Shown: piece by piece, positions 49,050-54,498 of the stretch
How positions within the stretch are numbered: the stretch's first letter is position 1
Layout of the letters: every line of letters begins with the position of its first letter
Source of the DNA: Spiribacter vilamensis
GTDB taxonomy: Bacteria > Pseudomonadota > Gammaproteobacteria > Nitrococcales > Nitrococcaceae
Direction: 5' to 3'
DNA length: 64,000 nucleotides
Assembly: GCF_004217415.1 (NCBI RefSeq)
Contig: NZ_SHLI01000001.1
Coordinates: forward strand, 124,001 to 188,000
Made by a program: the position numbers and the translations under genes
The notes under the pieces: generated by a model
What the model was told of the DNA's origin: nothing
Seen by the model: only the letters and a program-made list of their open reading frames with translations
Databases searched by the model: none

Positions 49050-49772
49050 ATGGATAAGAAAGATTTCTCGCAACATATCTCGAAGCAGTTCAACGAGGAC
49101 CTCGAGCAGATCATCACCCGCGTGATGACGATGGGCGGGCTCGTTGAACAGCAACTCGACGGGGCCCTCGAGGCGTTGGTGACCGGCAACCAGGAGAAGG
49201 GCCAACAGGTGGTCACCTCCGACTATCGGGTCAATGCCATGGAAGTGGAACTCGACGAGGCCTGCACCCATGTGCTTGCGCGCCGACAGCCGACTGCCAG
49301 CGATCTCCGGCTGATTATGTCGGTCATCAAGACCATTACCGATCTTGAGCGTATCGGCGACGAAGCGGAGCGGGTGGGCCGTATGGCGCTTCACCTGCTC
49401 GAAGAGGATCGGCAACGCAGTCCGATGGCGGAAATCTCGGCGCTGGGCGAACAGATCAAGCGAATGCTTCGGGGAGCCCTCGATGCCTTCACTCGCATGG
49501 ACGCCGAGCAGGCGGTTCACGTGGCACAGGAAGACATCAAGGCGGACTCGCAGTACGACTCGATCATCCGTAATCTGGTGAAAAACCTCGAAGACCACCC
49601 GAAGTCCGTGCCGCCGGTGCTGGATGTGCTCTGGGCGACGCGCTCACTGGAGCGGATTGGTGATCGTGCCCGCAATATCTGCGAGTACGTGATCTATTTC
49701 GTGCGCGGCAAGGATGTCCGCCATATCAGCTTTGAGCAGATGGCCGAGGAGGCCACCGGCGACCGCCGCTAG
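49050..49772 (+). CDS. phoU: Phosphate transport regulator PhoU
   Basis: PhoU is a helical metal-binding protein that inhibits PhoR signalling and limits Pst uptake. The 240-residue product shows the two PhoU repeats, each ending in the acidic helix motif ([22 protein letters not shown] and [21 protein letters not shown]). It ends the phoB-phoR-pstSCAB-phoU block and overlaps the convergent argF by 4 nt. No terminator is visible between them. Confidence 0.95.
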
Positions 49773-50671
49773 GCGGTCCCGCTGATCAGCCACTCCAGCA
49801 GCGCCTTCTGGGCATGGAGGCGGTTCTCCGCCTCCTCCCAGACCACGCTCCGGTCACCGTCAATGACCTCGGCGGTGACCTCTTCCCCCCGGTGGGCCGG
49901 CAGGCAGTGCATGAACAGTGCGTCCTCGCCGGCCGCCGCCATCAGGGCTTCGTTGACCTGGTAGGCGCTGAAGTCGGACAGGCGCGCGTCCTGCTCGTCC
50001 TCCATCCCCATGCTCGCCCAGACGTCGGTGACAACCAGGTCCGCACCGGCCACCGCGGCGAACGGGTCGGGCTCGTGGCGGCTGTTGGGGTACTCGGCCA
50101 GGTCCGCCGGTGCGTAAGCGCACGGCGCACCGATCGCCAGGTGGAAGTCCATGAGCTCGGCGGCCTGCATCCACGATCGGCACATGTTGTTGCCATCGCC
50201 CATCCAGGCGACGGTCCGACCGCGGAGCTCGCCCCGGTGAGCCTGCCAGGTCTGCAGATCGGCGAGCAGCTGACAGGGATGATGCTCATCGGTCAGGCCG
50301 TTGATGACGGGGACGCGGGACGCCCGGGCGAAGCGCTCAACGGTCTCGTGGGCGAATGTGCGGATCATGACCGCGTCCACCATCCCTGACAGCACCCGTG
50401 CGGTGTCCTCGACCGGCTCGCCGCGGCCGAGCTGGGTGTCCCGCGGTGAGAGGAACAGGGCGCTTCCGCCGAGCTGGGCCATGCCGGCCTCGAACGACAC
50501 CCGGGTGCGGGTCGAGGACTTCTCGAAGATCATTCCCAGTACCCGGCCACGCAGAGGCTCGTGGAGACTCCCGGCCTGGTGCAGTTCCCTCAGTTCGGCA
50601 GCCCGCCGTAGCAGGGTCTCGAGCGCCTCGGCGCTGATATCGGCGAGAGTCAGAAAGTGGCGCGATGACAT
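49769..50671 (-). CDS. argF: Ornithine carbamoyltransferase ArgF
   Basis: ArgF makes citrulline from ornithine and carbamoyl phosphate. The 300-residue protein has the carbamoyl-phosphate motif STRTR (53-57), the [10 protein letters not shown] segment and the ornithine-binding [13 protein letters not shown]. It is the second gene of a two-gene argD-argF unit (18-nt gap), under the promoter and leader hairpin found before argD. Confidence 0.96.
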
Positions 50672-50689: not shown

Positions 50690-51886
50690 TCAGGCAAGCT
50701 CGGCCGTTTCATCGGCGATTGCCTCTGCGGTCTTCTCGATCAATGGCGTCAGTGTGTCGACCAGTCGGTCGGCCTGCTCGTTGGTGAAAGTCAGTGGCGG
50801 CAGAAGGCGCACAACCCGCCCCGCCGTCACGTTGATCAGAATGCCCGCCTCGAGGGCCTGCGGGACCAGATCGGCACAGGGCCCGTCCAGCTCGACACCG
50901 ATCATCAGCCCCCGTCCGCGGATCTCGTGAATCCCCCGGACGTTGGCGAGGGCCTCACGCAGGCGGCCGATCATCCGGTCTCCGACCGCCGCCGCGTGCT
51001 CCAGCAGACCGTCGCGCTCGATGACATCGAGGACCGCGAGTGCCGCCCGGCTGGATAGCGGATTGCCGCCGAAAGTCGTGCCATGACTGCCGGGGCCCAG
51101 CACGCCACCCGCCGGTCCACCGGCGAGGCAGGCGCCGATGGGTACCCCGTTGGCGAGGGCCTTGGCGAGTGTCACCACATCCGGGCGGATGCCGGCGTGC
51201 TGATGGGCGAACCAGCGGCCGGTGCGACCGACCCCTGACTGCACCTCGTCGAGCATGAGCAGCCACCCCCGCTCGTCACAGAGGCGGCGCAGGGCCGGGA
51301 GGTAGTCATCATCGGGGACGACGATGCCGCCTTCGCCCTGGATGGGTTCGACAAAGACCGCAACCGTCCGGTCGGTCGCGGCCGCGCGGATCGCGCCGGT
51401 GTCGCTGTAGGGAACCCGCACGAAGCCCTCGGGCAAGGGACCGAAACCGGTCTGGGCGCGTTGGTTGCCGGTGGCCGTGAGTGCGCCCAGCGTGCGGCCG
51501 TGGAACGCGTTCTCGGCGACGATGATTTCCGGTGCCTCGATGCCGTGGTTGTAGCCGTAGAGCCGTGCCAGCTTGATGGCCGCTTCGTTGGCCTCGGCAC
51601 CGCTGTTGGCGAAAAAGACCTGCTCCAGGCCGGACAGGGCGCAGAGCCGCTCGCCGAGGCGCGACTGGTGCGGCACCTCGTAGAGATTGGAGGTGTGCAC
51701 CAGAGTTTGCGCCTGATCGGCAACGGCGGTAGCGACGTCCGGATGGGCATGGCCCAGTCCGCAGACGGCAATGCCCGACAGTGCGTCGAGGTACCAGTAT
51801 CCCTCGGTATCTTCGAGCCATGCCCCGTCGCCGCGCTGGAACGCGACCGACAGGCGTTTGTACGTGGGCATCAGGGCCGTTGACAT
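50690..51886 (-). CDS. argD: Acetylornithine aminotransferase ArgD
   Basis: This class III PLP-dependent aminotransferase converts N-acetylglutamate semialdehyde to acetylornithine. The 398-residue protein has the PLP aspartate and ring motif LLMLDEVQSGVGRTG, the Schiff-base lysine in TLAKALANGVPIGA, and FFANSGAEANEAAIKLAR. ATG 51886 is set by GGAGG 8 nt upstream; upstream in-frame codons lie in the leader hairpin. The same enzyme may also serve lysine synthesis, as in E. coli. It is followed by argF. Confidence 0.95.
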   Translation of the reverse strand: MSTALMPTYKRLSVAFQRGDGAWLEDTEGYWYLDALSGIAVCGLGHAHPDVATAVADQAQTLVHTSNLYEVPHQSRLGERLCALSGLEQVFFANSGAEANEAAIKLARLYGYNHGIEAPEIIVAENAFHGRTLGALTATGNQRAQTGFGPLPEGFVRVPYSDTGAIRAAATDRTVAVFVEPIQGEGGIVVPDDDYLPALRRLCDERGWLLMLDEVQSGVGRTGRWFAHQHAGIRPDVVTLAKALANGVPIGACLAGGPAGGVLGPGSHGTTFGGNPLSSRAALAVLDVIERDGLLEHAAAVGDRMIGRLREALANVRGIHEIRGRGLMIGVELDGPCADLVPQALEAGILINVTAGRVVRLLPPLTFTNEQADRLVDTLTPLIEKTAEAIADETAELA

Positions 51887-51899
51887 GGTGATGACCTCC

Positions 51900-51927
51900 A
51901 AAAACAAACGGCAGCCTGCGGCTGCCG
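51900..51927 (-). terminator. Terminator-like hairpin in the argD leader
   Basis: On the minus strand, CGGCAGCC (51927-51920), loop GCA and GGCTGCCG (51916-51909) form a perfect 8-bp stem, directly followed by TTTGTTTTT (51908-51900). It lies between the argD promoter and the argD ribosome-binding site, so a polymerase would meet it within about 35 nt of its start. This is the form of an attenuator or a 5' stabilising stem. Confidence 0.8.
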
Positions 51928-51935
51928 AGCATTTC

Positions 51936-51964
51936 ATTATAGGATGGGGCCATTAAGGCCACAA
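51936..51964 (-). promoter_or_regulatory. Sigma-70 promoter for argD-argF
   Basis: A perfect TATAAT (51941-51936) with TTGTGG (51964-51959) at a 17-nt spacing. Transcription should start near 51929, at the foot of the leader hairpin. The -35 lies 12 nt before the start codon of the divergent rnm-like gene. No ArgR-type operator was recognised around it. Confidence 0.78.
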
Positions 51965-51975
51965 GTAAGACGCCC

Positions 51976-52836
51976 GTGTCCGTTAGCCGCGTTGATCTCC
52001 ATATGCACAGTACCGCCTCGGATGGCCACCTGTCGCCGGCGGCCGTGGTGGAGCGCGCGGCTGAATCAGGTGTTCGGCTGATGGCACTGACCGATCACGA
52101 TAGCGTTGATGGCGTGGCCGAGGCGCAGACAAGCGCTCGCGAGCAGGGCATTGCGTGTCTGGCCGGCATCGAACTTTCGGCGCGATGGGCTCGCGGTGTG
52201 GTGCATATTGTTGGCCTCGATATCGATATCACCTCTCCGGCACTGGTCGAGGGCGTGACGCGACAGCAGGCCGAGCGCCACGACCGCGCCGCCCGGATCG
52301 CCGAGCGGCTGGCGGGGGCAGGTGTTCCCGGCATGGGTGATCGGGTAGCGCAACTGGCGAGTGGCGTTCCGGGACGTGCACACTTTGCCCGCGCACTGGT
52401 CGAGCAGGGGGCATCGCCGACGTTCCAGGCGGCGTTCGAGCGCTATCTCAAGCGCGGTCGTCCGGGTTACGCCGCCGTGCAGTGGGCGAGCATCGACGAG
52501 GTGGTCGCCTGGATCCATGCGGCCGGTGGCACCGCGGTTTTCGCCCATCCGCTGCGCTATGGCCTGTCTCGCGGCGCCCTGCGGGCGGTGATTCAGGCCT
52601 TTGTGGACGCGGGCGGTGGGGCGATCGAGGTCGCCAATGGTGGCGGCGGGCGCGACGATTTGTCGGCGGCCGCGGCGCTGGCGCGCCGATTCGGCCTGAC
52701 TGCCTCCAAGGGCTCGGACTTCCACGACCCCGACTTCCCCTGGATCGAGATTGGCCGGCTCGAGCCCATTCCCCGCGATCTCACGCCGGTCTGGGAGACT
52801 CTTCGCGTGACACCGGATACGCCGGCCAATGACTGA
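51976..52836 (+). CDS. rnm: PHP-domain 5'-3' exoribonuclease, RNase AM (YciV) family
   Basis: A 286-residue PHP protein. Metal-binding motifs are DLHMHSTASDGHLSP at 7-21, LTDHDSVDGV, GIELSARW, FAHPLRYGL and KGSDFHDP, in the order of the TrpH/YciV family. E. coli YciV (Rnm) trims 5' ends of ribosomal RNAs; that role is transferred by family. The start is GTG 51976 with only a weak ribosome-binding site; the argD promoter overlaps this region on the other strand. srkA starts 8 nt before its end. Confidence 0.85.
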   Translation: MSVSRVDLHMHSTASDGHLSPAAVVERAAESGVRLMALTDHDSVDGVAEAQTSAREQGIACLAGIELSARWARGVVHIVGLDIDITSPALVEGVTRQQAERHDRAARIAERLAGAGVPGMGDRVAQLASGVPGRAHFARALVEQGASPTFQAAFERYLKRGRPGYAAVQWASIDEVVAWIHAAGGTAVFAHPLRYGLSRGALRAVIQAFVDAGGGAIEVANGGGGRDDLSAAAALARRFGLTASKGSDFHDPDFPWIEIGRLEPIPRDLTPVWETLRVTPDTPAND

Positions 52837-53821
52837 TCCGCGGTCCGGCGAGCATCCGTTTGCCTGCCTCCAGCCCGCCCTGCTGCTGGACATGGTGGAG
52901 GCCGCCGGCGTTCATGCCGACGGCCGCCTGCTGGCGCTCAACAGCTACGAGAACCGGGTCTATCAGCTGGGCGTCGAGGAACGCGATCCGATGATTCTCA
53001 AGGCCTATCGGCCCGATCGCTGGCCGGATGAGGCGATCCTCGAGGAGCATGCCTTCGCGGCCCGGCTGGCCGAACACGACATCCCGGTGGTGGCACCGAT
53101 CAGCCTCGGTCACCGGACCCTGCATCATGCCGCCGGTTTCCGTTTCGCGCTCTATCCCCGGCGCGGCGGTCATGCGCCCGAACTCGATAACCCGGATACG
53201 CGGGAGTGGCTCGGCCGACTGCTGGGACGCATGCATACCGTGGGCGAGGCCGGCGTGTTCGAGCACCGGCCGGTTCTCGACGCCGATGTCATGGGGCGTC
53301 AGACCCGTGACTGGCTGCTTGCGGCCGACTGGATACCGGCGGGCGTCCAGGCGCCTTACCGGGCGGTCACCGACGAATTGCTCGCCGCGATCGATGAGGC
53401 CCGGGAAAGGGCGGCGGGCTGTGCCTCCATTCGCCTGCACGGCGACTTCCACCCCGGTAATATCCTCTGGACCGATCGGGGGCCTCACCTGGTGGATCTC
53501 GATGACTGCCGGACCGGACCGGCGATTCAGGATCTCTGGATGCTGCTCAGTGGTGACCGCGCCGAGCGAACGCTACAGCTCAGTGACCTGGTGGCCGGTT
53601 ACGAGCAGTTCCGTGAGTTCGACCCGCGCGAGCTCCACCTGCTCGAGGCCCTGCGCACGTTAAGAATCATGAGCTACGCCGCGTGGCTGGCAAGGCGCTG
53701 GGACGACCCGGCGTTCCCCGCGACCTTCACCTGGTTCGGGACCGAGCGTTACTGGGAAGACCATGTGCTGACCCTGCGCGAGCAGGTCGCGGCGATGGAG
53801 GCACCGGTGCTGAGCGTATGA
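52829..53821 (+). CDS. srkA: Stress response protein kinase SrkA (YihE)
   Basis: A 330-residue kinase of the APH-like fold. It has the catalytic loop RLHGDFHPGNILW and the metal motif LVDLDDCRTGP, with an N-terminal lobe containing LNSYENRVYQLG and ILKAYRPDRWPDEAILEEH, typical of SrkA. In E. coli SrkA is a Ser/Thr kinase that protects against stress-induced death; substrates here are unknown. It overlaps the upstream gene by 8 nt and the trkA ATG at its stop (ATGA). Confidence 0.9.
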   Translation: MTDPRSGEHPFACLQPALLLDMVEAAGVHADGRLLALNSYENRVYQLGVEERDPMILKAYRPDRWPDEAILEEHAFAARLAEHDIPVVAPISLGHRTLHHAAGFRFALYPRRGGHAPELDNPDTREWLGRLLGRMHTVGEAGVFEHRPVLDADVMGRQTRDWLLAADWIPAGVQAPYRAVTDELLAAIDEARERAAGCASIRLHGDFHPGNILWTDRGPHLVDLDDCRTGPAIQDLWMLLSGDRAERTLQLSDLVAGYEQFREFDPRELHLLEALRTLRIMSYAAWLARRWDDPAFPATFTWFGTERYWEDHVLTLREQVAAMEAPVLSV

Positions 53822-54498
53822 TGATAGTCGTGATCGGGGCCGGAACGGTCGGTAACAGCCTGATCGAACAGGCACTGGCGACCACCAATAACAACCTTGT
53901 GGTGGTGGAAAGCGATCCGACACTCGCGGATGCCTGTGCCGAGCGGCATGACGTACGTGTGCTCGCCATGGACGTCGGCGACGACGCATTCGTGGCGGAA
54001 AGCCAGCTGGCCCGGGCCGAGGCCCTGATCGCGACCACGGATGACGATTCCACCAATCTCATGGCGGTGCTGCTCGCGAAAGAGGTGGGCGTGGAGACGC
54101 TAACCGCCACCGTGAACCGGGATTCGCATATCCCCATCTTCCGTCGCCTCGGGGTTCGGGTATTGTCCGATCCGGAACGGCTGGTCGCCCAGCATCTGCT
54201 GGATATCACCCTGCTACCCGAGACCCACGACGTGACGACGCTGCGCGGTGGCCAGCAAATCATTGAGCTCAAGCTCGGCGAGAAGTCGCCGCTCGTGGGT
54301 CTGGAAGCCGCTGAAATCCGCCGTCGCGAGCTGCTGGGGGAGGATCTCCAGCTGCTCGCCCGGGTCCGCGAGGGGAAGACCCGACGGCTTGCCGATGGCG
54401 AGAAGCTGGCGGCGGGGGACGGGGTTATCCTTTTCGCGGCGGAGCGCCTTCGCGGCCGGCGCCGGCTCGCCTTCCGCGAGCGTCACCTGGAAGGCTGA
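53818..54498 (+). CDS. trkA: Potassium uptake regulator TrkA, half-length form
   Basis: TrkA gates the TrkH channel in response to nucleotides. The 226-residue protein has one NAD-binding RCK domain (VVIGAGTVGNSLIEQA then VVVESD) and one RCK_C domain from about residue 140, whereas E. coli TrkA (458) has two copies of each; the single-unit form resembles KtrA. ATG 53818 overlaps the srkA stop; an ATG at 53821 is equally possible. trkH starts 4 nt after its stop. Confidence 0.88.
   Translation: MMIVVIGAGTVGNSLIEQALATTNNNLVVVESDPTLADACAERHDVRVLAMDVGDDAFVAESQLARAEALIATTDDDSTNLMAVLLAKEVGVETLTATVNRDSHIPIFRRLGVRVLSDPERLVAQHLLDITLLPETHDVTTLRGGQQIIELKLGEKSPLVGLEAAEIRRRELLGEDLQLLARVREGKTRRLADGEKLAAGDGVILFAAERLRGRRRLAFRERHLEG

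Follow-up and report, generated by a model that had tools for sequence, protein, structure and literature searches.

A conserved terminator-like hairpin between the promoter and argD in Spiribacter vilamensis and its relatives, a candidate attenuator of arginine biosynthesis genes

Why should the promoter of an arginine biosynthesis operon be followed at once by what looks like a transcription terminator? The question is raised by the leader of argD in Spiribacter vilamensis, which lies in the 64,000-nucleotide stretch of DNA analyzed here (hereafter, the window; positions 124,001 to 188,000 of contig NZ_SHLI01000001.1).

The argD leader in the window

On the reverse strand of the window, argD (50690..51886, with its ATG at 51886) encodes an acetylornithine transaminase of 398 aa (NCBIfam TIGR00707, 466 bits, above cut-off). 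It is followed on the same strand by argF (49769..50671), which encodes ornithine carbamoyltransferase (NCBIfam NF001986, 442 bits, above cut-off) and is presumed to be the second gene of the argD operon. Upstream of argD and on its strand, a -35 element, TTGTGG (51959..51964), is separated by 17 nt from a -10 element, TATAAT (51936..51941). Both are evident in the sequence, conserved in the genus and supported by the class-wide -35 score and -10 position described below. From the position of the -10 element, transcription is predicted to start at 51929..51932, about 5 nt or less before a terminator-like hairpin (51909..51927). This hairpin was detected by scanning and folding and by covariation in relatives, and it pairs the arms CGGCAGCC (51927-51920) and GGCTGCCG (51916-51909) around the loop GCA. 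An interrupted T tract, TTTGTTTTT (51900..51908), seen in the sequence and in the scan and matched by a two-part T tract in relatives, abuts the Shine-Dalgarno sequence of argD, GGAGG (51895..51899), which was read from the sequence. All of these elements, down to the 8-bp stem and the 3-nt loop, had been named in a preliminary description of the locus and are present.

The -35 element matches TTGACA at 3/6 positions and is weak by consensus, and a simple consensus scan of the window region did not list the argD promoter. An in-frame ATG at 51937, which overlaps the -10 element, would add 17 residues to ArgD and extend the reading frame through the hairpin. Its use is unlikely if transcription begins near 51930.

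The neighboring gene (51976..52836, forward strand) encodes a PHP-type phosphoesterase (nucleoside bisphosphate phosphatase or RNase RNM-like; under both curated cut-offs) and is divergent, so the argD hairpin cannot end its transcript. Promoter elements directly before the hairpin, together with this divergent neighbor, place the hairpin in the argD leader, and the few nucleotides between the predicted start and the stem could accommodate neither a leader peptide nor an upstream antiterminator. On each of these points the preliminary description had reached the same view. The phosphoesterase gene starts 11 nt past the argD -35 element (region 51930-51976), so near that the promoter from which it is transcribed must share DNA with the argD promoter and the hairpin; a bidirectional -10 element common to the two genes is possible.

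The hairpin has 8 pairs, 7 of them G-C, and its G+C-rich stem-loop with a U tract flush against it has the form of an intrinsic terminator. Lying past the promoter and ahead of the first gene, with the start predicted from the promoter elements, it also has the placement of an attenuator. A terminator consensus scan listed exactly this hairpin, and it found 3 sites in 4 kb as against 1.6 +/- 1.3 in shuffled sequences, which is not significant by itself. Upon folding, the 21-nt hairpin stretch reached -14.7 kcal/mol (z = -3.4), a value that 0/200 shuffles equaled. The palindrome occurs at one place only in the genome, and a repeat element was rejected on this ground. A covariance model gave one match at E <= 1 in the window genome, the argD site itself (E = 3.7e-6), in a search that scored 150 of 912 first-look candidates and for which this site was among the 41 seeds of the model. 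It is conservation, not the scan score, that sets the window hairpin above chance.

Conservation in the genus and across the class

A comparison of the hairpin in related genomes had been proposed in the preliminary description. The covariance model found the element in each of the 14 genomes of the genus (14/14). Two of them seemed to lack it because of a broken contig or a second copy of argD, and in both the element is present on other contigs; in genome G011, the best model match was another hairpin (L252), and the argD site ranked lower. We aligned 11 of the 14 leaders, leaving out a short contig end, a contig break and a second argD copy. CTTGTG was invariant, and it formed, with the -10 region and with the hairpin and T tract, a series of conserved blocks separated by variable spacers. 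The hairpin core was common to 9 of the 11 leaders; one of the other two had a changed loop, and the second had a changed loop and a C-to-T change giving a G-T closing pair. All five argD loci from other genera of the family carried a hairpin. In four more genomes of the family, ArgD was not matched at the cut-off; one of these genomes is G014, an argF case described below.

ArgD was matched in 177 of 232 evenly drawn genomes of the class, and we read the leaders of the best-matching 150 of these 177 loci, the 27 weaker ones lying outside the sample. A stable hairpin with a T run within 160 nt was present in 114/150 argD leaders and absent from 36/150, compared with 50/450 dinucleotide shuffles and with 3/148 and 6/147 windows farther upstream. 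A strict motif, defined as a GGCRG-type arm, CTGCY and a T tract, was found in 76/150 leaders, or about half, and in none of the controls (0/750 mononucleotide shuffles, 0/148 and 0/147 upstream windows). The leaders of argC gave any hairpin in 8/30 and the motif in 0/30, which speaks against a general feature of arg genes; in the window genome, a hairpin was looked for in the argC leader and was absent. The difference between argD and argC had Fisher p values of 4.6e-7 (any hairpin) and 1.3e-8 (motif), with kin genomes treated as independent. At loci of the same phylum outside the class, any hairpin was seen in 10/29 and the strict motif in 0/29. Thus, the element is common across the class, beyond what the preliminary description had envisaged.

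Several features of the survey bear on how these counts are read. The scanner detected any hairpin at 41 of 80 named loci, and some of these hairpins may be the terminators of upstream genes. It overlooked several Rhodocyclaceae leaders because, judged by eye, their T run begins a few bases past the stem. Separately, five argD leaders from outside the class but within the phylum (L380, L383, L384, L385 and L386) carried hairpins of opposite polarity, with a C-rich 5' arm and a T run; these are possibly a parallel element.

The promoter travels with the hairpin. Scored with approximate frequency tables, 67 of the 82 anchored leaders (those of the 150 that passed arm anchoring) had a -10 element beginning 11-34 nt upstream of the hairpin arm, as against 4-9 of 80-82 in control windows. 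Scored in the same approximate way, a -35 element stood at 16-18 nt in 51 of these 67 leaders, as against 7-12/67 at other spacings, and the -35 score across the 67 showed a sharp peak at a spacing of 17 nt. The T tract proved to be two-part, with T runs at positions 1-3 and 7-9 and a loose middle. This pattern was present in 64% of 112 argD hairpins vs 22% of 356 other hairpin-T matches, a control set in which true terminators are mixed with chance ones.

We then scanned the class with the covariance model, seeded with 41 of 83 candidate hairpins hand-picked from the same class sample; strict filters were applied, and 28 candidates were scored per genome. With tables matched by eye, argD sites accounted for 30 of the best 31 matches, 23 of these 30 being seeds of the model; the best 60 included 46 argD sites. 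They also included three argF sites, none of them a seed: in G014, G082 and G200, TATAAT and the same hairpin lie ahead of the ornithine carbamoyltransferase gene. The element can therefore precede argF, a point also outside the preliminary description. G082 and G200 represent one genus, so that the argF cases are three genomes of two genera. The same leader stands before argF, with no argD between, at L308, L313 and L314. In 87/111 loci, argF lay <=400 nt downstream of argD.

Twenty other sites matched by the model were fetched. One (L320) lay before an ArgD-like ORF and three before argF; of the 16 remaining, 11 were within 60 nt after the end of a codirectional ORF, like ordinary 3' terminators. 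At L319, near position 1206 in the orientation of the motif, a match immediately precedes an fmt-like gene; the ORF upstream of it is divergent, and a 3' terminator does not account for the match.

Pfam assignments of 18 upstream neighbors of the hairpin comprised 6 superoxide dismutases, 2 urate-oxidase-N-like proteins, 1 methyltransferase, 1 divergent amino-acid kinase, 1 divergent guanylate kinase, 1 weak hydantoinase match and 6 with no family. Since the upstream neighbors vary, the element goes with the arg operon and not with any one neighbor. A split of the loci by orientation (34/48 'divergent' loci with a hairpin) is unreliable, because 5/8 scanned 'divergent' neighbors had no Pfam family and several of these loci prove, when read in frame, to have codirectional genes.

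Pairing in the stem and the role of the hairpin

We investigated whether the stem is maintained by compensatory changes. Counts of inner pairs in the 82 anchored leaders are biased, because the 5' arm with the most inner pairs had been taken. The test was therefore redone on 71 leaders with a single exact GGCRG arm, picked regardless of inner pairing. Inner pair 1 was formed in 62/70 leaders (shuffled mean 52.3), inner pair 2 in 55/69 (42.6) and inner pair 4 in 35/42 (23.9), in each case with 0/1000 shuffles as high. Inner pair 3 showed no excess (40/59 vs a shuffled 35.3; 67/1000 as high), and under a looser arm definition (21 leaders) pairing was not above shuffles. Inner pair 1 was C-G in 45 leaders, T-A in 14 and T-G in 3. 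Similarly, in the model alignment (96 rows from 99 chosen loci, mostly with a hairpin already seen), 94.6% of cells paired vs 88.4 in shuffles, and 46 cells were changed on both sides vs 20.5, with 0/500 shuffles as high in either measure. When the partner was slid along this alignment, pairing dropped to <=86.5%. In 5 of the 96 rows, a palindrome already in the alignment is read from the opposite strand; with these rows removed, 497/526 cells paired (shuffled 463.6), with 44 two-sided changes (shuffled 19.7). Two of the five measures gave no excess, namely pairs with two-sided changes (3 vs 2.5) and further pair types (8 vs 8.4). As the alignment was fitted to the structure and the sequences are related, we take this result as support, not proof. 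Taken together, promoter, hairpin and U tract form one conserved unit with a covarying stem, tied to argD or argF.

The hairpin is probably a promoter-proximal intrinsic attenuator of argD-argF that operates with no antiterminator. RNA polymerase would start a few bases upstream and form the hairpin at once; a certain fraction of rounds would end at the T tract with release of a short RNA, here of about 30 nt, and in the remaining rounds polymerase would read through into argD-argF. With no space for an upstream antiterminator or a leader peptide, this fraction would have to be set in trans or by elongation speed. An RNA-binding or Nus-type factor might act on the stem or on the polymerase, or elongation might be timed at the two-part U tract. 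To our knowledge, no factor for such read-through has been described. It counts against an attenuator that a strong terminator so close behind the promoter would shut down the operon if there were not substantial read-through.

The preliminary description had offered premature termination, RNA-binding control and a stabilizing stem without ranking them. We infer termination, rather than a plain stem, because a G+C-rich stem with a flush T tract is conserved even where the start codon is up to 88 nt off. As a 5' stabilizing stem, the hairpin would lengthen mRNA life or raise translation with no termination, its U tract serving as a single-stranded landing site for ribosome S1 or Hfq. The layout in the window suits such a role, the hairpin beginning within ~5 nt of the predicted 5' end, with the Shine-Dalgarno sequence in contact with the T tract. 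By contrast, many relatives have the hairpin well past the predicted start (8-32 nt from the end of the -10 element to the arm), and the distance from the end of CTGCY to the start codon has a median of 34.5 and a range of 17-88 nt. In either layout, the T tract adjoins the stem without a gap, which a terminator requires. A stabilizing stem is thus rather unlikely, although it is the strongest competitor of the attenuator.

The palindrome could also be a DNA operator, bound by an unknown arginine regulator that has replaced ArgR; the arm sequence is conserved among hairpin-aligned leaders, and ArgR is undetected in the genus. Operators usually hold a fixed spacing, whereas the arms here are 3-16 nt apart among leaders, and for this reason a fixed operator was dropped as a first choice. 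Moreover, one stem position is G-T in 21/82 anchored leaders, the inner pairs show two-sided changes, and the T tract is on one side only. Covariation of stem pairs with varying arm spacing points to an RNA and not a DNA element, as is seen for RNA, and we consider an operator improbable.

The chance is slimmer still that the element is the gene of a small trans-acting RNA, with argD downstream by history. A very short sRNA gene would have just this anatomy, a promoter with a terminator right behind it, and Hfq-binding sRNAs are reported to end in T-rich terminators of this sort (PMC5558911, PMC4509938). The hairpin-aligned leaders argue otherwise: no seed was seen, since no position outside the hairpin and T tract exceeds 0.37 bits (a seed at variable distance would escape this measure), and the element keeps with argD or argF while other neighbors change. 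Least probable of all is that the hairpin terminates the gene upstream or acts as an insulator that blocks read-through: many class members have a codirectional upstream gene, such as superoxide dismutase (6/18 neighbors), but the neighbor is divergent in the window genus, and in 44/46 codirectional cases (by a crude ORF rule) the -10 element lies after the upstream stop, indicating that the hairpin is within the argD transcript.

ArgR and known systems

The C-terminal domain of ArgR (PF02863) was detected in 0/14 genus genomes, with 8/14 control genomes positive, including E. coli. As no ArgR was detected in the 14 genomes, control of the window argD through an ArgR operator is unlikely, in line with the preliminary description, in which no ArgR boxes, the usual arg control, were seen. 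The same domain occurs in just 20/232 sampled genomes of the class, in which the element is a candidate new RNA family. ArgD-like genes of the ArgR genomes had any hairpin in 2/21 loci, both weak and A+T-rich. No ArgR genome is among the 150 sampled leaders (handles compared), partly because ArgR genomes match ArgD more weakly; taking the best-matching loci confounds the ArgR contrast with ArgD similarity, descent and the sample cut. Confounded as it is, the pattern of hairpin and ArgR fits another control replacing ArgR.

Nothing that we found explains arginine control in these ArgR-less bacteria, and recurrence of the element before the argD operon in many relatives suggests an unrecognized brake or switch on arginine production. 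We infer regulated read-through and service in ArgR-less lineages, as we do termination. A wider proposal is tentative: in gamma- and betaproteobacteria without ArgR, a class-wide argD-argF terminator might be read through under a stem-binding factor acting in trans or according to polymerase speed, and hence nucleotide levels, which would link the use of carbamoyl phosphate for arginine and for pyrimidines. So short a leader with a conserved, covarying terminator offers a clean test of attenuation by a factor or by polymerase kinetics alone.

E. coli argD shares its biochemical step and gene name with the window argD; it is repressed by ArgR, and no such hairpin was found there in our scan. 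In the leader-peptide attenuators of the trp and his operons, too, the leader of an amino-acid operon carries a premature intrinsic terminator. Unlike them, the argD leader of the window has only a few nucleotides between the predicted start and the stem, a gap that fits neither a leader ORF nor an alternative hairpin. The UTP-sensitive attenuation of pyrBI depends on a translated ORF in a longer leader, and the argD leader is without such an ORF. The two systems are alike in having a U-tract terminator and an operon that uses carbamoyl phosphate; that argD read-through might track nucleotide levels as in pyrBI is only an idea.

In the window stretch, no Rfam family matched the argD leader at E <= 1, and 20 relatives gave four weak matches, all under the gathering score, one of which (ceN115, opposite strand, L221) overlaps a relative's leader. 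A known RNA family, whether a riboswitch, a T-box or another Rfam leader, was rejected accordingly, none being above threshold on the leader. Elsewhere in the window, 53791-53840 weakly matches the sR44 snoRNA family (22.9 bits vs a gathering score of 45), probably by chance. The literature searched, to which most subscription journals did not belong, described no terminator in an argD leader; an earlier mention is possible.

The closest published kind of element is the rimP-leader, reported to be a short terminator-like hairpin with a conserved stem, a U stretch and no visible antiterminator, found in many species 4-130 nt from the gene start, for which a protein that acts on the terminator was proposed (Naville and Gautheret 2010, PMC2965389). 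Like the rimP-leader so described, the argD element is a terminator-only leader with a conserved stem. The rimP-leader has the stem GGGc...gCCC, precedes the operon rimP-nusA-infB and has a 180-nt leader in B. subtilis (PMC2965389). The argD leaders show GGCRG...CTGCY before argD-argF in place of that stem and operon. Compared with the rimP-leader as reported there, the argD element thus has a stem of the GGCRG...CYGCC type, serves argD or argF, and places its hairpin nearly at the start of the transcript.
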